NCBI RefSeq assembly: GCF_000559085.1
Contig: NZ_JALN02000001.1
Span: 4,836,001-4,900,000, forward strand
Direction of reading: 5' to 3'
Length of the DNA: 64,000 nt
Source of the DNA: Mycolicibacterium aromaticivorans JS19b1 = JCM 16368
GTDB lineage: Bacteria > Actinomycetota > Actinomycetes > Mycobacteriales > Mycobacteriaceae
The position numbers and the translations under genes are program-made. Shown here piece by piece: positions 12,082 to 43,258 of the stretch. The notes beneath the pieces were generated by a model. That model saw only the letters and a list, made by a program, of their open reading frames with translations, was not told where the DNA came from and made no database searches. The number at the start of each line of letters is the position of its first letter. The stretch's first letter is position 1.

Positions 12082-13445
12082 CTCACGTTGACGCGATCGT
12101 CGTCGGTGCAGGGCAGGCGGGCCCACCGCTGGCCGGCCGCCTGACCGCCGCGGGCCAGACCGTCGCCGTCATCGAACGCAAGCTTGTGGGTGGAACCTGC
12201 GTCAACTCCGGCTGCATCCCCACCAAGACGCTGGTGGCCAGCGCGCACACCGCCCACACTGCCCGGCGCGGTGCCGACTACGGAGTGTCGACCGGCGAGG
12301 TGTCGGTCGACATGGCAAAGGTCAAGGCGCGCAAGGACGGAATCGTGCTGGGCGACCGCAGCGGAGTCGAGTCGTGGATCGAGGGGATGCCCGGCGCCGC
12401 TCTGATCCGCGGCCACGCGCGGTTCGAGGATCCGCACGCCATTCGCGTCAATGACGAGGTTCTGACCGCCGACCGGATCTTCCTCAACGTCGGCGGCCGC
12501 GCGGTGGTGCCCGACCTGCCCGGTCTGTCCGACATCGACTACCTCACCAATGTCGGCATCCTCGAACTCGACACTGTGCCTGCGCATCTGGTGATCATCG
12601 GGGGTAGTTATATCGGCCTGGAGTTCGCTCAGATGTACCGCCGGTTCGGGGCGCAGGTCACCGTGCTCGAGCGCGGTCCGCGCCTCACCCCACGCGAAGA
12701 CGAACACGTTTCCGCCGCCATCCAGGACATCCTGACGGCCGAGGGCATCACCATCGTCACCGGCGCATCCGGTTTGCGATTCACCAAGCGCAACAACGGT
12801 TTCGAGGTGATTCCGTACGACGGGGCGGTGCCCATCGCCGGTTCACACCTGCTCGTGGCCGTGGGCCGCAGGCCCAACACCGACGACCTGGGCCTCGACC
12901 GCGCCGGTGTCGAGGTCGACAGCCGCGGCTACATCGTCGTCGACGACCAACTTCGCACCAGCGCCGAGCACATCTGGGCGATGGGGGACTGTAACGGCAA
13001 GGGCGCCTTCACCCACACCTCCTACAACGACTTCGAGATCGTCGCGGCCAATCTGCTCGACGATGATCCGCGCCGAGTCAGCGACCGGGTACCGACCTAC
13101 GCTCTCTACATCGACCCGCCGCTCGGCCGGGCCGGCCTGACCGTCGACCAGGTCCGTAAGTCCGGCCGTCGGGCCCTGATCGGCAAGCGTCCGATGACCA
13201 GGGTCGGCAGGGCGGTGGAAAAGGGCGAGACGCAAGGCTTCATGCAGGTCGTCGTCGACGCCGACACCGAGGAGATCCTCGGCGCGGCGATCCTCGGGGT
13301 CGGCGGCGACGAGGTCATCCACTCGATCCTGGACATCATGTCCGCCAAGAAGCCCTACACCGCGATAGCGCGCACCATGCACATCCACCCGACCGTCAGC
13401 GAACTGGTGCCGACCATGCTGCAGGAGTTGGAACCGCTGGTGTAG
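12078..13445 (+). CDS. FAD-dependent class I pyridine nucleotide-disulfide oxidoreductase (mercuric reductase-like)
   Basis: A 455-aa flavoprotein of the lipoamide dehydrogenase/mercuric reductase/glutathione reductase family. It has the N-terminal FAD motif GAGQAGPPLAG, the redox-active pair in GGTCVNSGCIPTK (Cys41 and Cys46), a central NAD(P) motif IIGGSYIGLEF, and the C-terminal dimerisation domain with the HPTVSELVP His. It lacks the N-terminal HMA domain and C-terminal vicinal Cys pair of true MerA, so mercury reduction is unlikely. The GTG start overlaps the upstream membrane gene by 4 bp. The physiological disulfide or quinone substrate is unknown. Confidence 0.87.
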   Translation: MTHVDAIVVGAGQAGPPLAGRLTAAGQTVAVIERKLVGGTCVNSGCIPTKTLVASAHTAHTARRGADYGVSTGEVSVDMAKVKARKDGIVLGDRSGVESWIEGMPGAALIRGHARFEDPHAIRVNDEVLTADRIFLNVGGRAVVPDLPGLSDIDYLTNVGILELDTVPAHLVIIGGSYIGLEFAQMYRRFGAQVTVLERGPRLTPREDEHVSAAIQDILTAEGITIVTGASGLRFTKRNNGFEVIPYDGAVPIAGSHLLVAVGRRPNTDDLGLDRAGVEVDSRGYIVVDDQLRTSAEHIWAMGDCNGKGAFTHTSYNDFEIVAANLLDDDPRRVSDRVPTYALYIDPPLGRAGLTVDQVRKSGRRALIGKRPMTRVGRAVEKGETQGFMQVVVDADTEEILGAAILGVGGDEVIHSILDIMSAKKPYTAIARTMHIHPTVSELVPTMLQELEPLV

Positions 13446-13590
13446 CGGCCGCCTACTAGCGCGTTCTCCTCACCGGCGCGCTGACCTCCTCGACGAGCAT
13501 GGTCGCCCCAGCAATCGAGGCGATGAGGCACGCAGATGGCCACCGTGTGGCCCCTTCTGGGTTGGGCCCGGCTCTGGCATGCTGTGGGGC

Positions 13591-13992
13591 ATGACTGAGC
13601 CGCAGTTCGGAGGCACCGAGGGCGCACCGCCGCCCAACTACCAGGTTCCGCCCAACTACCAGGCACCGCCGAATTACCCGATGCCGCCGCAGTATCCGGG
13701 CCCGGGTGGCTACGTCGACCCCTCGGCCCCGTTCGGCCGTCATCCGGTCACCGGCGAGCCGCTGTCGGACAAATCCAAGATCGTCGCCGGGCTGCTGCAG
13801 CTGCTCGGATTGTTCGGCCTGGTGGGGATCGGCCGCATCTACCTGGGCTACACCGGCCTGGGCATCGCCCAGCTGCTGGTCGGGCTCGTCACCTGCGGCC
13901 TCGGCGCCGTCATCTGGGGGATCATCGACGGCGTCATGATCCTCACCGACAAGGTGCGCGACCCGCAGGGGCGACCCCTGCGTGATGGGTAG
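13591..13992 (+). CDS. TM2 domain membrane protein (Rv1615-like)
   Basis: A 133-aa protein with a Pro/Tyr/Asn-rich cytosolic N-terminus (NYQVPPNYQAPPNYP repeats). Two hydrophobic helices joined by the short polar turn of TM2 domains follow (GLFGLVGIGRIYLGYTGLGI onward). ATG 13591 begins the TEPQFGG sequence. It overlaps the following DUF2752 gene. In M. tuberculosis the equivalent pair lies between lgt and pyk as I recall, marking the start of the Rv1615-Rv1634-like block. Confidence 0.8.
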   Translation: MTEPQFGGTEGAPPPNYQVPPNYQAPPNYPMPPQYPGPGGYVDPSAPFGRHPVTGEPLSDKSKIVAGLLQLLGLFGLVGIGRIYLGYTGLGIAQLLVGLVTCGLGAVIWGIIDGVMILTDKVRDPQGRPLRDG

Positions 13993-14395
13993 CGTCGACC
14001 AGCCACGGACAACCCGGCTCTACGCCGGGCTGGCTACTGGTGCGCTGGGGATCGGTGCGTTCACCTATGTCGGCATCGTCGACCCGCACCGGCCCGGCTC
14101 ACTGTTTCCGCCGTGCCCGTTCCGGTTGCTCACCGGCTGGAACTGCCCGGCGTGCGGTGGCCTGCGAATGACCCACGACCTGCTGCACGGCGACGTCGCG
14201 GCCGCTGTCGTCGACAACGGGTTCCTGCTCGTCGGTTTGCCCCTGCTGGCCCTGTGGGCGGTCTGGCGGATCCGGCGAGGGGAGCGGGCGTTTCCGCTAT
14301 GGGTGATCAGCGTGATCGCCGTCGCGGCGATCGGCTGGACAGTCATCCGGAACCTGCCGGGCTTCCCGCTGGTGCCCACATTAATTGGGCAGTGA
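13985..14395 (+). CDS. DUF2752 membrane protein (Rv1616-like)
   Basis: A 136-aa protein with three predicted transmembrane helices and the DUF2752 core: PPCPFRLLTGWNCPACGGLR, including the CPxCGGxR signature, followed by HDLLHGD. GTG 13982 and ATG 13985 are both usable; ATG is reported. Its start overlaps the TM2 gene stop by 8 bp, indicating co-translation. Function unknown; the Cys pair suggests metal or redox binding near the membrane. Confidence 0.8.
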   Translation: MGSVDQPRTTRLYAGLATGALGIGAFTYVGIVDPHRPGSLFPPCPFRLLTGWNCPACGGLRMTHDLLHGDVAAAVVDNGFLLVGLPLLALWAVWRIRRGERAFPLWVISVIAVAAIGWTVIRNLPGFPLVPTLIGQ

Positions 14396-14411
14396 TGCCC
14401 ACCCCGCGCTG

Positions 14412-14545
14412 ATACACTCTCAACTGAAAATCATCGGGCCGGTGCAGTCCCAGACATCACACGTCAGACTGCGGTAAAGGCCAATCACCACGCGCATCGC
14501 GCACACCAGCTTTCCGCCGCATGACCGACCGCGGAGGAGCGTGGA
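14412..14545 (+). promoter_or_regulatory. gltB promoter and about 127-nt leader with a possible 11-codon leader ORF
   Basis: A good -10 hexamer TACACT lies at 14413-14418, giving a transcript start near 14425 and an unusually long leader for this window. The leader contains a tiny ORF (GTG 14442 to TAA 14477) reading VQSQTSHVRLR, with two Gln codons. A strong Shine-Dalgarno GGAGGAG at 14533-14539 sits 6 bp before the gltB ATG. A regulatory role for the leader or the mini-ORF is speculation. Confidence 0.4.
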
Positions 14546-17500
14546 ATGCTGTTCTCGGCACTTCCCGAAGCGCAGGGTCTCTACGACCCCAGGCACGAGT
14601 CCGACTCGTGCGGTGTGGCGATGGTGGCCGACATCCAGGGCCGACGGTCACACCAGATCGTCGCCGACGGACTGACGGCACTCGAACACCTCGAACACCG
14701 CGGTGCCGCCGGCGCTGAACCCAACAGCGGTGACGGCGCCGGCATCCTCCTGCAATTGCCGGTCGAATTGCTTTCCGCTGTGGCGGAATTCGATCTTCCG
14801 GAACCAACGCGCAACGGCTGCAACACCTTTGCCGCCGGCATCTGCTTCCTGCCGATGGACCCGTTCGCTCGACAAGCCGCTGTCGACCGGGTCGAGGCAA
14901 TCGCCGAGGAGGAGGGCCTGGACGTCCTCGGGTGGCGGGCCGTGCCGGTCGACCCTGACGGCGCCGAAGTCGGCGCCACCGCGCTGGGTTGCATGCCGCA
15001 CATGTCGATGTTGTTCGTGGCAGCTCCCGAACGAAACGGCCACCGTCTCGGCGGGATCGATCTCGACCGCCTGGTCTACCCGCTGCGCAAGCGCGCCGAG
15101 CAAGGCCCCGACAGCGTCTACTTCCCGTCGCTGTCCAGTCGCACCATCGCCTACAAGGGCATGCTCACCACAATGCAGCTGCCGCAATACTTTCCCGATC
15201 TGCGCGACCAACGGTGCCGCAGCGCGATCGCGATCGTGCACAGCCGCTTCTCCACCAACACCTTTCCGTCCTGGCCGTTGGCGCACCCCTTCCGGTTCGT
15301 GGCGCACAACGGCGAAATCAACACGGTGCGGGGTAACCGCAATCGGATGCACGCGCGAGAAGCCATGCTCGCCAGCACCATGATTCCCGGTGACCTGAGC
15401 CGGCTTTCGCCGATCTGCACGCCCGATGCGTCGGACTCCGCGTCCTTCGACCAGGTGCTCGAGCTGCTGCACCTCGGCGGCCGCAGTCTGCCGCACGCCG
15501 TGATGATGATGATCCCGGAGGCGTGGGAGAACAACGCAACTCTTGCCCCGGCCCGCCGGGCGTTCTGTCAGTACCACGCCTCATTGATGGAGCCGTGGGA
15601 CGGACCAGCCTGTGTGACGTTCACCGACGGCACCGTGGTGGGAGCTGTCCTGGACCGCAACGGCTTACGGCCCGGCCGGTGGTGGCGCACCATCGACGAC
15701 CGGGTGATCCTGGCCAGTGAGAGCGGTGTGCTGGACATTCCGCCGGGCGAAGTGGTGGCCAAGGGTCGGTTGGAGCCCGGCAAGATGTTCCTGATCGACA
15801 CCGCCGCCGGGCGGATCGTCAGCGACGACGAGATCAAGGGTCAGCTCGCCGCCGAAGCGCCGTACGCCGAATGGCTGCACGCCGGTCTGCTCGATCTGGC
15901 GACTCTGCCGGCAAGGACCCGGGTCTCACCGAACCACGAATCGGTGGTGCGTCGCCAGGTCGCGTTCGGCTATACCGAAGAAGACCTGCGGATCATGCTC
16001 ACCCCGATGGCGGCCTCCGGGCAGGAGCCGCTGGGGTCGATGGGCACCGACACCCCGGTGGCTGTTCTGTCCCAGCGCCCCAAGCTGATCTACGACTACT
16101 TCGTCGAACTGTTCGCCCAGGTGACGAACCCGCCGCTGGACGCCATTCGCGAGGAGATCGTCACCTCGATGGCCCGCGTCATGGGCCCCGAACAGAACCT
16201 GCTCGAGCCGACGGCCGCATCCTGCCGCCAGATCCTGCTGCACTGGCCGGTTCTGGACAACGACGAGCTGAACCGGATCGTCCACATCAACGACGACGGC
16301 GAGCAGCCCGGCCTGAAGTCAGCCGTCCTCAAGGCGCTCTACGATGTCGAACGCGGCGGGGAAGGCCTGGCCGAAGCCATCGAGGAGTTGCGCCACCGGG
16401 CGTCCGACGCGATCGCCAAAGGCGCACGCACCCTGGTCATCTCCGACCGCGACTCCGACCACACCCGCGCGCCGATCCCGTCGCTGCTGGCCGTCGCCGC
16501 GGTGCACCACCACCTGGTCCGGACCAAACAGCGCACCATGGTGGCGCTGGTGGTGGAAAGCGGTGACGCCCGCGAGGTCCACCACATCGCGCTTCTGATC
16601 GGATACGGCGCGGCCGCAGTCAACCCGTATCTGGCGTTCGAGTCGATCGAGGACCTGATCCGCGAGGGCGAACTCACCGGCATCGACTCGGGCACCGCCG
16701 TGCGCAACTATCTCAAGGCACTCGGCAAGGGCGTCATGAAGGTGATGAGCAAGATGGGCATCTCGACCGTCGGCTCATACACGGCTGCACAGGCTTTCGA
16801 GGCCATCGGGCTGTCCAAGGATGTCGTCGACGAATACCTCACGGGCACGGTCAGCCAACTCGGCGGTGTCGGACTCGACGTGCTGGCCGACGAGGTCAAG
16901 CTACGGCACCGCCGTGCCTACCCGGAGAACCCCACCGAGCGGGTGCATCGCCGCCTCGAGGTCGGCGGAGAATACCAATTCCGCCGCGAAGGCGAGCTCC
17001 ACCTGTTCACCCCGGAAACGGTCTTCTTGCTTCAGCATTCGACCCGGACCAAGCAGGGCGAGGTGTTCGCCAAGTACTCCGCGGAGGTCAACCGGCTCTC
17101 CCGCGAGGGCGGTACGCTGCGCGGCCTGTTCGGCTTCAACAAGGGTCTGCGGCCACCGGTTCCGCTGCACGAGGTGGAGTCCGTCGAAGCCATCTGCAGC
17201 CGCTTCAACACCGGAGCGATGAGTTACGGCTCGATCTCGCAGGAAGCGCACGAGACCATGGCGATCGCCATGAACAACCTCGGCGGGCGTTCCAACAGCG
17301 GTGAAGGCGGCGAAGACGAAGACCGGCTCTACGACCCGCGCCGGCGTAGTGCCGTCAAACAGGTGGCGTCTGGTCGGTTCGGTGTCACCAGTGACTATTT
17401 GGTCAACGCCACCGATATCCAGATCAAGATGGCCCAGGGTGCAAAGCCCGGTGAGGGTGGGCAACTGCCCGGCTTCAAGGTGTATCCGAACATCGCGAAG

Positions 17501-38098: not shown

Positions 38099-38827
38099 TC
38101 AGACGGTACGGCTGCGGGTCCGCCTCACCTGGCGGCCGTCCTCCGTGTCGTCTCGCCTTTGCGGCCGCGACGTAATGGCCGCAGCACTCAGTGCCACGAG
38201 CGCCCCGCCGAGCAGCATGCCCCCGATGACATCGGTGAAAATGTGAGCGCGGACGTAGAGCGCCAGCCATGCGACGGCAAGGACACCTATCGCGGCAACG
38301 CTTGAAATCACTGCCTTCGCAGCGTGCTTGCGCCCGACGCCTACGCACACCGCGATCGTTCCGAACAGTGTGGCGGCTCCGGTGACATGACCGGAGGGAA
38401 ACGAATTCATGTAATCGAGGTCTGACCAGTCAAGCATTGACCCGTCGCGCAACTGGGCGAGATTTTCGGGCGTTCGCTCGACGATGTGCTTGAGCGCCTG
38501 CTCGAGCACCGCACCCGCGCCGACGGATCCAGTCACGGCAACGAGGCGCATGATCGAACGCGCGTTCACGGCCAGTAGAGTTCCGCTCACCAATCCGGCG
38601 ACTGCCACGTGGATGGGTTGACCGATGTAGTCGAAGATCCCGGTCGAATCGCCCCGCCGATTGTGCGATCGATGCGCGTCGAACCAATTCCAGACCGATG
38701 TGTCGAGCGCTGTCATCCACCAGGAGTTGATCTCGGCAGCCATGTACGCCAGCGCGCCGAACAGGCCCGCGGCGAGCAGGACCAGCGCGAATCGCTGCCG
38801 TCTCGATGTGATGTCGATGTCGCTCAT
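38099..38827 (-). CDS. PAP2-family membrane phosphatase
   Basis: A 242-aa membrane protein with about six helices and the three PAP2 phosphatase motifs: KHIVERTPE, FPSGHVTG with the catalytic His, and YVRAHIFTDVIGG with the second His and Asp. Substrates in the family are lipid phosphates such as phosphatidate, undecaprenyl pyrophosphate or PI-phosphates. ATG 38827 is chosen; ATG 38845 is also possible. GC content is slightly lower than in neighbouring genes and it lies next to the tRNA-associated island. Confidence 0.8.
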   Translation of the reverse strand: MSDIDITSRRQRFALVLLAAGLFGALAYMAAEINSWWMTALDTSVWNWFDAHRSHNRRGDSTGIFDYIGQPIHVAVAGLVSGTLLAVNARSIMRLVAVTGSVGAGAVLEQALKHIVERTPENLAQLRDGSMLDWSDLDYMNSFPSGHVTGAATLFGTIAVCVGVGRKHAAKAVISSVAAIGVLAVAWLALYVRAHIFTDVIGGMLLGGALVALSAAAITSRPQRRDDTEDGRQVRRTRSRTV

Positions 38828-39083
38828 TGTGCCGCAATGGCTCATCTCATCGTTGCGGGTAGTCCAAGGCGCCAATCGGCCGCGATTGATCCGGACCCGG
38901 TCAAGGGAACCCGCCACGGCAAGGGGGGATAAGGGGCCGTGGCGGGCTCGATACGTCAACGGTGGGTGGACCGGAGCAGTTCCCCGACCGCGACACCGAT
39001 GCGGGAGGCGGTATCTGCAGGCGCTTTGCATCTGCGCGCTCCGCAGGCCCCAGCCGCCTGATTGCGGGCGGTACGGATAGCGC

Positions 39084-39133
39084 GTTTCTGGTGCCCTCGG
39101 TGAGATCCGAACTCACACTGCACGGGTTGTGAA
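39084..39133. repeat. Direct repeat copy of the tRNA-Leu 3' half (att-like, left end)
   Basis: This 50-bp block matches 42444-42493 at 48 of 50 positions in the same orientation. It covers the tRNA 3' end (including encoded CCA and 5 bp beyond) through the T arm to the anticodon loop; the 5' half of the tRNA is absent. Such half-tRNA duplications mark the far end of integrated elements. Confidence 0.85.
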
Positions 39134-39707
39134 GGTGTGGATCCTACGTTGTTCCAGCTCACAGCTGTTGGGGCAGGTTGATGACCGTCGGGGACCGGTG
39201 AGGATGAACTACCAGTGCAGATAGGTTTTTTATCGATGTCTCCCGATAGTCCTCGGGTGTCCGCGATCGGTGCCCTGCTTACTGTCTGCTTACTGGAATC
39301 GAGTTGTCCGAAACAGCCTTTCAGCCCGTTCACCCTAGCCATCGCTCCCAAGAATGCGAACTAATTGATAGCTCGAATGACCCGGGGAGTCGACTTGCCA
39401 GTAATTTTCTGACAGTGCTGGCAGGGGAGAAAACCTGTTCCGCACTCCAACCGAATCAGGCGACCTCCCTTGCGCGTCCACTCTTTGGCCCTTGGGTTCT
39501 CACCCCGCGGGGGCAGGTGGGCGGACCCACCTCAGCGCGGCCACGATCCGGTTTTACATCCTGAAGAATATTGAGTTGGGGCGTGCACTTCGGCCACGTC
39601 GGTCGTCGTCGCCTCGCTCGGCGTAGCGATGTGCAGGCGTGGATTGACTCGAGAACCACGACAGTGTGATGGGTACTGCGCACGCGGCGTCGACTCGTTG
39701 TCGGCTG
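39134..39707. other. AT-richer stretch without a credible gene
   Basis: No open frame here has mycobacterial codon bias, and GC is visibly lower (near 50% around 39300-39420) than the surrounding DNA. It holds short inverted repeats (TGCCAG at 39397 with CTGGCA at 39419, and GGTGGG/CCCACC near 39520). Together with the flanking half-tRNA copy this looks like decayed mobile-element DNA. Confidence 0.5.
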
Positions 39708-39828
39708 GGGTCACCGAGACGACGGTGTTGGTGACCGTGGCGATCACCGATACGCCGGTGAAGTAGACGTAAGCGCCGTCGGGGCTGATCGCGACCCCCG
39801 GCTCCGCTGAGGTCGCGGGATGCCGGAG
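39708..39828 (-). pseudogene. YVTN beta-propeller repeat remnant
   Basis: On the minus strand, right after a TGA (39831-39829), about 35 codons read TSAEPGVAISPDGAYVYFTG followed by VSVIATVTNTVVSV. This is one blade of the YVTN beta-propeller family. The reading then becomes unrelated sequence. Mycobacterial surface proteins often carry such blades, so this is a fragment of a lost gene downstream of the glycine-rich gene. Confidence 0.6.
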
Positions 39829-39975
39829 TCATGGGAAATCTGACCCACACTCGGAGCACCCGGGCGGTGATCCGGGGCAGCGGGGTCGGAGTGCGGGCGT
39901 GAACCCTGGGGGCACTCGAACTACGCCTCACATGCACGCCGAATCCGTTGCCGCACAGCAGATTCGCGCGCGAAG

Positions 39976-41400
39976 TTACCCGCCCGCGCCGGTGGTGCCC
40001 GGGCTGCCCGACAGCGCCCCCGCGGCTCCGCCCTTGCCGCCCTCCCCGTCGGACCCGTTCGGAAGCCCACCCTCGCCGGTCCCGCCCGCCCCGCCGTCGC
40101 CACCGTTGCCGCCGTTGCCGATCCGCCCGGCGTTCCCGCCGGCCCCGCCGCCCGCACCGTTCCCGCCGGCGTCGAACGAACCGTTGCCGCCGGAGCCGCC
40201 GGCCCCGCCGGCCCCGCCATTGCCGTACAGGGACCCGCCGGTGCCGCCCTGACCGCCGAGCCCACCGTTGCCCCCGGGAGCATTATTCGGCGGCTGGCCG
40301 TCGCCGCCGGTGCCGCCGGCCCCGCCAACTCCGCCCGTGCCGATCAGCCCGGCATTGCCGCCGGCGCCGCCGCCACCACCGTTCCCCCCTGAAACGCCTT
40401 CAGCGAAACCGCCACCGCCGCCGCTGCCGCCGGCCCCACCGGTCCCGTAGAGCCATCCGCCGTTGCCGCCGTTGCCGCCGGGTCCGCCGTTCCCGCCTAC
40501 GCTGTCGAAGCCGGCCCCACCGGGCCCGCCGGCGCCGCCGGCCCCGATCAGCCCGGCGGCGCCCCCCGCCCCGCCACGTCCTCCGACAACGTTGGGGCCG
40601 CTCCCCCCGCCGCTGACCCCACCGGACCCGCCGGACCCGCCGGCGCCGTACAGCCAGCCGCCGGCGCCCCCGTTGCCGCCGTTGCCGGCGGGCTCGACGT
40701 CACCGCCGGGCGTGGCGTCGCCGCCGGTCCCACCCGCCCCGCCGGTGCCGATCAGGCCCGCGGCGCCGCCGTCCCCGCCGGTGCCGCCGGTGAAACCGCC
40801 GCCGCCGCCCTGGCGGGCGTTCCCGCCGTCCCCGCCGGCTCCAGCACTGCCGTACAGCCAGCCGCCGTGGCCACCGGCGCCGCCATCGCCGCCTGACCCG
40901 GGGACATGTACGTCCGTCGCGTTGCCGCCGTGGCCGCCGCTACCGCCGGCCCCCAACAAGCCCGCGCCCCCGCCGGCTGCCCCGGCGCCGCCGTTCCCGC
41001 CGCCGCTGGTGTTCCCGCCGGCCCCGCCGGCGCCGGCGTCGCCGGTCAACCAGCCGCCGTGCCCGCCTGCCCCGCCGTTGCCGCCGGCGCCCCCGGCGCT
41101 GGAGTCCCCGCCGGCCCCGCCGGCCCCGCCGTTGCCCACCAAGCCGGCACAGCCACCGGCACCACCCGTACCGCCGCTGACCCCGCCGGCGCTGCTGGCC
41201 CCGCCGGCCCCGCCGGCGCCGCCATCCCCGCCCAACAACCCGCCGCGCCCGCCGTTGCCGCCCGCACCGTCGTTGATCCCCGCGACCCCGGCCCCGCCGT
41301 TACCACCCTTACCGAACAACCCGGCCGCCCCGCCGTTGCCGCCGTTGAAGCCGTCACCACCGCCACCGCCGAACAATCCGCTGCGCCCGCCGTTGCACGC
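39976..41400 (-). repeat. PGRS (Gly-Gly-Ala/Asn) coding repeat tract
   Basis: A GC-rich tandem-like tract of GCCGCCGGC-type units encodes the glycine repeats. Units of about 100-130 bp alternate between [13 protein letters not shown] and GWLYGxGGxGG themes. It creates a long Pro-rich antisense open frame that is an artefact. Confidence 0.8.
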
Positions 41401-42078
41401 CACCCCGCCGGTGCAGGTGGCTGCGGTGTAGCTGAATCCGGTGCCGAACAACAACCCGCCGTTGGGGTGCGTTGCGGTGCCGTTGCTCACGAAAACACCG
41501 ATCCACCCCGCGATCAGCGCACCCGGATGCCAACCTCCACTCGTCGGCCCCACCACCGCAATCGGCATGGTGACAGTGCTGGTGCGGCGGGGATCAGCCA
41601 GCGTGGACACCACAGACGCCGCGGTCAGCGCCGCACCTGAGCTGCTACCCGAGGACAGCGGCGACGACGACGTGGTGGGTGTGGTTGGCGTCGTGTCGTG
41701 AGGCGGCGTCGGCGACCCTGCCGAGCCGGTCACGATGGACGCCGAGAGTTTGCTCACCGGAGTGCGGTGCTGATCGCCGGCACTTGCACCCGACCCACCT
41801 GCATGACCAGTCGACGACGACGAGGTCCCAGAGCCCGAAGCACTTGAGGACCCCAACGACGGCGTGTGATGGGTCGAGCCGGCCGGCGACGCCCCCGAGG
41901 CTGCCGAGCCGGCATCCGCCCACGCCACCGCTGGCACTGCCGCGATCCCCACCCCGAGACCCAGTGCGATCGCCAGACCACCGACGCGGCCCATGTACCG
42001 AGACCCATCGGGCGAGGGCGCTACCGGCGACCGATCACGATGGGCGACACGGGTCTGAGACGAGTGACGAGCGACCAT
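39976..42078 (-). CDS. PGRS-type glycine-rich surface protein with signal peptide and no PE domain
   Basis: A 700-aa protein. ATG 42078 follows GGGAG 6 bp upstream. Residues 1-58 form an extended signal sequence with a basic N-region, [20 protein letters not shown] and cleavage site AVAWA-D. Residues 59-200 are Ser/Thr/Gly-rich. A linker resembles the PE_PGRS junction ([20 protein letters not shown]), then about 450 residues of GGxGGxGG repeats run to the C-terminus, with recurrent GLxGxGGxGG and GWLYGxGG units. There is no PE domain, so secretion would be Sec-type and not type VII. It is probably cell-surface or extracellular; function unknown. Confidence 0.82.
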
Positions 42079-42228
42079 TGGCAACTCCCGAACAGCTGAG
42101 GTCCACGAGGCACCGGCACCCCGCAGAATGCCCCGATTATTAACGCAACTGCCCATATCCGCTTGTCGTTTCGATCAAAACAATCGCTCCGCCAGCGCAG
42201 TGCCAGCACCTCACCGCATGCCCTGGAC

Positions 42229-42330
42229 TTACTCAGCGGCAAGAACCCGATAGACCGTGGTGTTCGGGACTCGGAAAATCGATGCTAGGGGCGCTGAGAA
42301 TTGCTCGATGCCGTCGTGCGCGTTTGGCCG
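42229..42330 (-). pseudogene. C-terminal HTH remnant of a serine recombinase (resolvase/invertase)
   Basis: About 33 codons ending in TAA (42231-42229) read FSAPLASIFRVPNTTVYRVL followed by AAE. This matches the Hin-type helix-turn-helix at the C-terminus of resolvases (pattern xLAxxFxVxxTTVYRxL). The catalytic domain is absent: upstream codons run into the tRNA gene. It lies between the tRNA and the PGRS-like gene, consistent with decayed mobile DNA. Confidence 0.5.
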
Positions 42331-42443
42331 TTCTGGCGTAGCTAGTGGCGCGGCGCAACGCTCTGACCTGCGAGCGCGCGGTGCGTAGGACGTACGTAGG
42401 GTGCTTGCATCCGCAACTGCTAGCAGGGCTAACAACAACCGCG

Positions 42444-42493
42444 GTTTCTGGTGCCCTCGGTGAGATTCGAACTCACACTGCACGGGTTTTGAA
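42444..42493. repeat. Direct repeat, tRNA-proximal copy (att-like, right end)
   Basis: The intact-tRNA copy of the 50-bp repeat, in direct orientation with 39084-39133 and 3360 bp from it. It runs from 5 bp beyond the encoded CCA through the T arm, variable loop and into the anticodon loop of the minus-strand tRNA. Confidence 0.85.
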
Positions 42494-42525
42494 TCCGTTT
42501 CCTCTGCCAGTTGGGATACGAGGGC
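42452..42525 (-). tRNA. tRNA-Leu (CAA anticodon loop), 74 nt, CCA encoded at 42449-42451
   Basis: The minus strand folds as a cloverleaf: acceptor stem GCCCTCG/CGAGGGC (7 bp), D arm with TCC/GGA, anticodon loop TTCAAAA giving CAA, T arm GTGAG/CTCAC around TTCGAAT, discriminator A73 and genomic CCA. The anticodon loop is identical to that of E. coli tRNA-Leu(CAA), and A73 fits LeuRS. The variable region is only 5 nt, whereas tRNA-Leu is normally class II. The top pair of the anticodon stem is an A-C mismatch. Leu identity is therefore probable, not certain. Confidence 0.85.
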
Positions 42526-42640: not shown

Positions 42641-43258
42641 ATGACGGACGCCGAAGACCGCACATCCCGCCGGGTGCTGATCGCCGAGGATGAAGCGTTG
42701 ATCCGGATGGATCTGGCCGAGATGCTTCGGGACGAGGGCTACGAGGTGGTCGGCGAAGCCGGGGACGGCCAGGAGGCCGTCGAGCTGGCCGAGCAGCTGC
42801 GCCCCGACCTGGTGATCATGGACGTCAAGATGCCGCGGCGTGACGGGATCGACGCGGCCGCCGAGATCGCCAGCAAGCGCATCGCGCCGATCGTTGTGCT
42901 GACCGCCTTCAGTCAGCGTGACCTGGTGGAAAAGGCGCGCGATGCCGGCGCCATGGCGTACTTGGTCAAGCCGTTCTCCATCAGCGATCTGATCCCGGCG
43001 ATCGAGGTGGCGGTCAGCCGGTTCGGCGAGATCGCCGAACTGGAGCGTGAGGTCGCCAACCTGTCGGACCGCCTGGAGACCCGCAAGCTGGTGGAGCGGG
43101 CGAAGGGGCTGCTGCAGGCGAACCAGGGCATGACCGAACCCGAAGCGTTCAAGTGGATTCAGCGTGCGGCCATGGACCGGCGCACCACGATGAAGAGGGT
43201 CGCCGAGGTGGTGCTGGAGACGCTCGACACGCCCGGTTCGGATCCCGCGTCGAATTGA
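42641..43258 (+). CDS. pdtaR: Two-component response regulator with ANTAR RNA-binding domain
   Basis: A 205-aa protein, the same length as Rv1626. The receiver domain has the acidic pocket EDE (residues 16-18), phosphoacceptor Asp61 (IMDVKMP), Thr in LTAF and Lys in LVKPF. The C-terminal ANTAR domain (ETRKLVERAKGLLQ to the end) binds paired hairpins in mRNA to antiterminate transcription. The cognate kinase PdtaS is not in the window. The gene follows the tRNA as an independent unit. Confidence 0.95.
   Translation: MTDAEDRTSRRVLIAEDEALIRMDLAEMLRDEGYEVVGEAGDGQEAVELAEQLRPDLVIMDVKMPRRDGIDAAAEIASKRIAPIVVLTAFSQRDLVEKARDAGAMAYLVKPFSISDLIPAIEVAVSRFGEIAELEREVANLSDRLETRKLVERAKGLLQANQGMTEPEAFKWIQRAAMDRRTTMKRVAEVVLETLDTPGSDPASN

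Follow-up and report, generated by a model that had tools for sequence, protein, structure and literature searches.

A tRNA-bounded island in the window

We analysed a 64,000-nt stretch of the genome of Mycolicibacterium aromaticivorans JS19b1 (contig NZ_JALN02000001.1, positions 4,836,001 to 4,900,000; hereafter the window), in which an island of 3310 bp (39134-42443) lies beside an intact tRNA-Leu(CAA) gene, the sole tRNA gene reported there by ARAGORN (coordinates of all features in Table 1). A 50-nt core that begins in the anticodon loop and ends 5 nt beyond the 3′ end of this tRNA is repeated directly at the far border of the island, with 48 of 50 positions identical (96%) and a spacing of exactly 3360 bp. 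The island holds one long open reading frame (ORF; 39976-42156, minus strand) with PGRS-type repeats, and its G+C content outside this PGRS-like gene is 61%, vs 66.5% for the whole window. Searching positions 39070-39160 against the organism's own genome (6.30 Mb in 6 contigs) recovered at E<=1e-3 only the query itself and the tRNA (E 9e-17). Because the genome holds just these two matches, the displaced core is neither a chance similarity nor a common repeat.

These results bear out much of an earlier reading made from the letters alone (the sequence-only reading), which had described AT-richer DNA bounded by a half-tRNA direct repeat and had seen in it a tRNA-integrating element with attachment (att)-like repeats, a PGRS-like gene inside and no intact integrase. 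Neither tblastn nor a hidden Markov model (HMM) of integrases detected an Omega-type integrase in the island; among its ORFs scanned, Pfam matched no recombinase, and no capsid, packaging or other phage gene was recognised. General Pfam scans of the window ORFs recognised no relic of conjugation; no search aimed at relaxases or oriT was made. A recombinase helix-turn-helix remnant, also proposed from the letters, could not be recovered, as the ORF 42229-42483 had no match in Pfam (E<=1), NCBIfam (E<=0.1) or PHROGs (E<=0.01).

Empty sites in close relatives

The flanks of the window island, joined without the 3360 bp, were aligned to relatives (genomes are denoted by G numbers). In Mycobacterium sp. 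ENV421 (G024), which has one intact tRNA copy and whose tRNA-side flank is 96% identical to that of the window, the best value among 395 other genomes, the joined flanks align unbroken across the junction over mostly non-coding DNA (365 of 404 positions, 90%). A single tRNA copy was likewise found in G321, G312, G285, G009, G292, G314, G004 and G136, so that near relatives do have empty sites with a lone tRNA 3′ end, as had been predicted; among the seven next-best flanks (G024, G053, G292, G321, G314, G004, G136) only G053 has a second copy. As ENV421 keeps the tRNA sequence, the two differences between the cores arose in the displaced copy, and such drift is as expected once that copy stands outside a gene. 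The segment is also far from universal in mycobacteria: barring short matches, the surroundings of the PGRS gene are absent from the other 197 genomes searched. Beyond the PGRS-like gene, 836 bp found matches in 31 of these 197, each of about 100 bp or less, and the 361 bp before it matched a single genome over 36 bp.

A PAP2 gene comes next after the empty site in ENV421, G321, G312, G285 and G009. Between the empty site and this gene ENV421 carries about 340-360 bp more than the window, which breaks the alignment there. The distribution of the PAP2 gene is patchy (matches at E<=1e-20 in 25 of 297 genomes, including the own genome), and none stands beside the tRNA in G292, G314, G004, G136 and G093.

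The tRNA-Leu(CAA) 3′ end as an integration site

Six cluster J phages, Omega among them, are described as integrating into the tRNA-Leu gene Msmeg_3245 through a 44-bp core whose left end lies in the anticodon loop, flanked by pairs of putative arm-type sites with the consensus TGCATACg/tPuPy (PMC3706429). The window shares with this published account the same tRNA-Leu and a core starting in the anticodon loop, has paired 11-bp repeats that resemble the arm-type sites with a deviating motif, and departs from it in that neither integrase nor phage gene was found and in its size of 3.3 kb vs 106-117 kb. The tRNA 3′ half matched 49 of 50,697 phage records over 44-48 bp at 95-99% identity (megablast), all of them Mycobacterium phages; Omega's own record was not among the 49.

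For a survey of this site we examined 121 loci, namely the window, 40 loci selected by any of four features (second half-tRNA copy, PAP2 gene, good match to the tRNA, near flank), and a further 80 taken by flank similarity. Four were dropped for want of a full tRNA match (G130b, G067b, G018b, G039). The remaining 117 loci come from 116 genomes, G109 contributing two; elements of more than about 14 kb escape this survey. Of the 80 flank-chosen loci, 79 had the tRNA, eight an integrase match and four a second tRNA copy (G253, G304, G034, G199). Altogether, 16 of the 117 loci have a second half-tRNA copy, counting G183, whose copy is a 19-bp match that we set aside as evidence; in G171, G034 and G199 the copy spans only 24-26 bp. 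An Omega-type integrase ORF was present in 20 of the 117 loci, a sample enriched for occupied sites, and in all 20 one of its ends lay within 170 bp of the first tRNA base. The HMM behind these counts was seeded with the integrases of Baka, WXIN and six elements from this analysis; these six match by construction. At least four loci hold a broken integrase (G110, G123, G112) or a scrap of one (G199). The sequence-only reading had anticipated intact elements with an integrase at this site in other strains, and other species do carry integrase-bearing elements here. Since occupants of several kinds share one site, the 3′ end of tRNA-Leu(CAA) is an integration hotspot.

Three occupants of this tRNA-Leu, each of about 11 kb, encode an Omega-type integrase together with a capsid protein (G021, G109) or with a terminase and a portal protein (G304), and are candidate phage satellites.

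A related tRNA-proximal end in islands of five species

In six of the 16 second-copy loci the integrase HMM had no match: the window, G053 (M. rhodesiae DSM 44223), G043 (M. vinylchloridicum CECT 8761), G301, G175 and G183. Pfam found no recombinase in G053, G043, G301 and G175 either (larger ORFs and some smaller ones). The islands of the window and these four genomes have in common a related non-coding end of about 110 bp directly after the tRNA. When trained on G053, G043, G301 and G175 alone, an nhmmer model found the window end (42354-42437, 84 bp) at E 1.2e-8, and had no match at E<=1 in the other 112 loci, integrase-bearing or empty. With the window among its training sequences, model R1 scored 66.6 bits over 42348-42440. 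In pairwise blastn, the window end was significantly similar to that of G043 only (E 4e-5), with marginal matches to G301 (E 0.02) and G175 (E 0.07). A five-island model of sequence alone, run against 396 genomes under strict filters, returned the five and a marginal partial match in G079 (E 0.0079), and in 61 genomes around G301, partly overlapping the 396, it found G301 only. Phage attP arms score weakly against the end model (E 0.13-0.55), and the G053 end had no match in phage or plasmid records at E<=0.01. Because the tRNA-proximal end is related across integrase-less islands of five species, the lack of integrase may be inherent to the lineage.

In G043, part of the cassette end is repeated about 200 bp further inside the island (L065, about 1427-1533; nhmmer E 5.4e-15). 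This additional copy perhaps stems from an earlier insertion and is a tandem structure of the sort that accretion would leave.

Putative arm-site pairs

Inside the tRNA-side end of the G053 island, where no integrase was found, the pair TGCATACTGT/TGCATACGGT, 11 bp apart, fits the published Omega consensus exactly; its far pair, TGCATACAGC/TGCATACAAT, also 11 bp apart, has one mismatch each to that consensus. The window motif is TGCTTACTG, vs TGCATAC in Omega (PMC3706429). In a motif-free pair test we compared the best 10-mer identity at an offset of 11 with 1000 first-order shuffles, at both ends of 15 elements. The far end of the window reached 10/10, a value attained by none of the 1000 shuffles. 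The best pairs were equalled by 0.6% and 4.4% of shuffles at the two ends of G053 and by 5.1% and 5.6% in G043, and seven of the ten elements with an integrase or its remnant stayed below 2% at both ends (the others being G110, G109 and G199). At the tRNA end of G288 and the far end of G253, the best-scoring pair differs from the one seen by eye. The far pair of the window starts about 140 bp inside the core, like those of G288 and G304 (145 bp in G109). The 20-bp pattern of this pair (39276-39295, at most one mismatch) has a single occurrence in the own genome and is missing from the 286 others, vs three of 287 genomes for a reversed control, so that a match to such a pattern could also arise by chance. 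Judging by position, spacing and the consensus in G053, we infer that the 11-bp pairs are integrase arm sites.

Probable separate arrivals

Between the window and G053 the 1-kb flank beside the tRNA is 95.0% identical and the island ends 49.0%; for G043 the values are 85.2% and 68.5%. Inheritance of a single insertion would give the reverse order of end and flank identity, so these islands are probably not one inherited insertion. In the flank tree, the window groups with the empty ENV421 (support 0.94), G053 with G321, G292 and G314, which lack a second copy (0.81), and G301 with the empty G312 and G285 (0.96), while G043 stands with G288 and G175 with G018, both of which hold integrase-bearing elements. 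Because the relatedness of the ends disagrees with that of the flanks, the five islands probably arrived separately.

The two att copies are identical over the 43-48 bp aligned in G053, G043, G301 and G175, an identity to be read with caution, as local alignment favours identical stretches. Identical copies may indicate recent arrival without an integrase. As only the window copies differ (2 of 50 positions), its insertion is probably the oldest, and the copy there probably old and immobile.

Cargo and neighbouring genes

From its ATG at 42078, which is preceded by GGGAG, the PGRS-like gene encodes 700 aa with a signal-like N-terminus, a Ser/Thr-rich linker and GGxGG repeats. The protein has no Pfam domain and no non-repetitive C-terminal part, ending with the repeats. 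Its own frame contains no stop across the gene, vs 4 to 11 in the five other frames. Nine related proteins were found at E<=1e-5; by eye, P0001, P0002, P0003, P0006 and P0009 are similar to it in the N-terminus and in the block that precedes the glycine-rich repeats, and go on into C-terminal parts that are non-repetitive. The N-terminal part also matches nine further places, in eight ORFs, of the own genome.

The other islands carry unrelated genes. An ApeA_NTD1 protein is encoded in both G053 and G301, accompanied in G053 by an ATPase-domain protein and a protein of 287 aa, and in G301 by a Hypoth_Ymh protein and a protein of 219 aa. G043 encodes two large proteins without Pfam match, and G175 a pentapeptide-repeat protein. 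Six smaller ORFs of these four islands and two of the window had no match in a Pfam scan. The ATPase protein resembles BbrUII/HgiDII-type restriction enzymes with a score far under the NCBIfam cut-off (76 vs 550 bits); PADLOC likewise listed it as restriction-enzyme-like and the Ymh protein as PD-Lambda-3-like, and made no call for the G043 and G175 proteins or the PGRS protein of the window. The small proteins of both G053 and G301 match PHROG 8440, and each adjoins the ApeA_NTD1 protein (L064:6578-8863 and L107:3501-5590); this pair, which PADLOC did not recognise, is perhaps a two-gene anti-phage module. In G253 (L134, about 12127-14861), an integrase-bearing element is followed by a 2.6-kb segment that encodes an MmyB-like regulator and an alpha/beta hydrolase and is ended by a third half-tRNA copy. 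This second segment gave no integrase match, and the tandem has the geometry that is expected for accretion.

Two short scraps lie behind the PGRS-like gene in the window island. One is a remnant of the C-terminal tail of a LysR-type regulator gene and recurs in many mycobacteria. For the other, read earlier as a YVTN remnant, short DNA matches of 70-87% in other genomes are in favour, while two scanned ORFs belong to no Pfam family, which leaves the similarity standing and the name weak. We take the ANTAR response regulator beside the tRNA (42641-43258) to be PdtaR-like.

Table 1. Features of the island in the window and of its surroundings
Feature	Coordinates	Strand	Basis
tRNA-Leu(CAA), intact; its 3′ half is the element side of the junction	42449..42525	-	ARAGORN
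att core at the tRNA (tRNA 3′ half plus 5 nt)	42444..42493	-	Repeat; 49 phage records with 44-48 bp of the stretch or its edge
Second att core, the displaced original tRNA 3′ half, 2 substitutions vs ENV421 tRNA	39084..39133	-	Repeat; ENV421 alignment
Island (cassette), absent in ENV421	39134..42443		Alignment of the joined flanks to ENV421, 365/404
Non-coding cassette end, related to island ends of G053, G043, G301 and G175	42348..42440	-	nhmmer
Putative arm-type integrase sites, tRNA end, degenerate pair GTGCGTAGGA/GTACGTAGGG, 11-bp spacing	42381..42401	+	8/10; weak alone, position supports
CTGACCTGCG motif within the shared end	42363..42372	+	Alignment of island ends
Putative arm-type integrase sites, far end, CTGCTTACTG twice, 11-bp spacing	39275..39295	+	10/10, 0/1000 shuffles
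PGRS-like gene, 700 aa from ATG at 42078 (ORF open from 42156)	39976..42078	-	ORF, repeats, relatives
Scrap of a LysR-type regulator gene, C-terminal tail	39845..39893	+	DNA matches
Scrap like stretches of other mycobacterial genomes	39718..39799	-	DNA matches; YVTN name unconfirmed by Pfam
Flanking PAP2 phosphatase gene, adjoins the empty site in some relatives	38099..38836	-	Pfam, relatives
Flanking ANTAR response regulator gene	42641..43258	+	Pfam; flank matches in 388/396 genomes

Origin of the cassettes

The insertion and its site, the att geometry, the related ends, the perfect far pair, the discordance of ends and flanks and the failure to find an integrase are direct observations. With moderate confidence we read 39134-42443 as an integrase-less, att-bounded cassette of a small family, comparable to a cis-mobilisable element (CIME), which owes its insertion to a foreign integrase. 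This enzyme, a tyrosine integrase of the Omega type (cluster J phages) encoded outside the cassette, would recombine the att core of the cassette with the 3′ half of tRNA-Leu(CAA). The incoming DNA would thereby supply the tRNA with an equivalent 3′ half, and the half that it replaced, pushed 3360 bp away, would drift there. The cassette would keep what is needed in cis, that is, the core at both junctions and a putative arm-site pair inside each end, the tRNA-side pair falling within the shared non-coding end. The integrase would act in trans or in tandem (cis-mobilisation), having been lost or absent before arrival, and family members would carry unrelated cargo, in the window the gene for a PGRS-like secreted protein. 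On this reading the cassettes, probably with the exception of the window copy, would still be mobile.

Several observations weigh against this interpretation. The family is small: the shared end occurs in five of 396 genomes, all found previously, with filters that lose weak matches, and the far end of the window island is not clearly alignable with the far ends of the others. The pair test comprised 30 ends with uncorrected p-values. The tRNA end of the window reached 8/10, a value equalled by 9.5% of shuffles and weak alone; the tRNA-side pair of G301 (57%; far side 7.1%) and the far pair of G175 (98%; other end 0.8%) were not significant. A search for repeated 10-mers shared by both ends, free of motif and spacing (8 elements with 8 shuffles apiece), failed to distinguish the window, which the pair test with its fixed 11-bp spacing did distinguish. 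No helper with the window arm motif was found in the 286 other genomes or in IMG/VR, and PADLOC made no call for the two ApeA_NTD1 proteins. The weightiest objection, together with the small size of the family, comes from G175, where tblastn found a 71-residue integrase scrap beside the shared end; at least one family member thus once possessed an integrase here, in keeping with loss in place.

Elsewhere in the own genome there are two matches to the Omega-type tyrosine integrase of phage WXIN, one of 37% over 354 residues (G000:C1:881485-882486) and one of 33% over 79 residues (G000:C1:700020-700253). We do not argue for the former as a helper: ARAGORN found no tRNA in the 17 kb around it, and no 11-bp pair in two adjoining stretches exceeded 6/10. 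Eight IMG/VR contigs retrieved with two patterns were judged to be chance matches, having in the DNA examined no tRNA match (E<=0.1), no integrase match (E<=1e-5) and a best end-model E value of 0.014.

The strongest competing explanation, which we consider a serious candidate though on balance an unlikely one, is decay in place, in which every island arrived as a full Omega-type prophage or satellite with an integrase of its own and later lost integrase and phage genes, leaving cargo between the att sites. Integrase-bearing elements do occupy the same site, and the observed states are graded, from broken integrases (G110, G123, G112) through scraps (G175, G199) to islands in which none was found (G053, G043, G301, window); the window, moreover, has gene scraps and a drifted att copy. 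However, the integrase ORFs sit at the tRNA-proximal end, where the integrase-less islands have their related non-coding end, which independent losses would have had to keep, and the identical att copies (43-48 bp) in four of the five leave little time for full loss, subject to the bias of local alignment towards identity. The sequence-only reading had likewise called the island a decayed element. Its lack of a detectable integrase holds, and the G175 scrap is in keeping with decay, but that reading missed the related tRNA-proximal end in four other species.

A single ancient insertion in the ancestor of the clade, passed down vertically while its cargo was exchanged in place, and lost precisely through the 50-bp repeats at the empty sites, appears very improbable. 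In flank similarity all five carriers rank within the top 25 genomes, and deletion between short direct repeats is reported for E. coli (PMC5426353). Against this, the window and G053 combine flanks of 95% identity with ends of 49%, vs 90% at the ENV421 empty site, where the 404 bp compared are mostly non-coding, and the tRNA has no second copy in close relatives of the window, G053 and G301. Duplication of part of the tRNA, or a rearrangement, that set a half-tRNA beside a local PGRS gene without any integration can hardly be entertained, for although PGRS-type genes are repetitive and multi-copy, as the nine further places illustrate, the exact insertion of one repeat period relative to ENV421 is decisive, the boundaries are those of a known phage att core and the same geometry occurs with integrases in other species.

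Relation to known systems and significance

The nearest category for an integrase-less cassette of this kind is the CIME, an integrated segment with attL and attR and no integration genes, described as an integrative and conjugative or integrative and mobilisable element that lost its integration and transfer genes (PMC5704250). The window island is like a CIME in having the core at both borders and no Omega-type integrase that we could find; it has no tandem partner, the tandem geometry being that of G253. It differs from the CIMEs of that description in belonging to islands of several species with related, discordantly evolving ends and different cargo, at the site of a phage-type integrase (PMC5704250). 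The microcin H47 island of E. coli is also small, has direct repeats and is devoid of its own recombinase, and was shown by experiment to excise and integrate with functions from elsewhere; it is, however, a single system of 13 kb with extensive imperfect repeats, and its abstract mentions neither arm-site pairs nor an end family (PMC3191183). Candidate mycobacterial phage-inducible chromosomal islands (PICIs), as published, are small and some lie at tRNA genes; the elements of G021, G109 and G304 are comparable to them. PICIs are defined there by an integrase and a capsid gene, neither of which was found in the cassettes (PMC10654092). In the open-licence literature (titles, starts of abstracts and some passages) we found no account of integrase-less cassettes at mycobacterial tRNA-Leu. 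So far as this search tells, a set of islands that share a tRNA, have related ends without an integrase and carry exchangeable cargo is new.

It is quite possible, though we would not yet call it probable, that the cassettes parasitise phage integrases, retaining no more than an att end with its arm-site pairs, riding cluster J-type phages or satellites in and out of tRNA-Leu and exchanging cargo, which would include likely anti-phage genes (ApeA-like, restriction-like) and a PGRS-like surface gene that might hinder phages. That a glycine-rich surface protein affects phage adsorption is speculation.

Islands without an integrase are usually dismissed as decayed, and the recurrence of related att ends in five species, with different cargo and at odds with the relatedness of the flanks, suggests instead that some of them travel on an integrase from elsewhere. 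If so, they would be a compact way of moving single operons between mycobacteria. These results mark the 3′ end of tRNA-Leu(CAA) as a hotspot for cargo, some of it probably anti-phage, and point to a possible route by which the gene of a PGRS-like surface protein may enter a genome.

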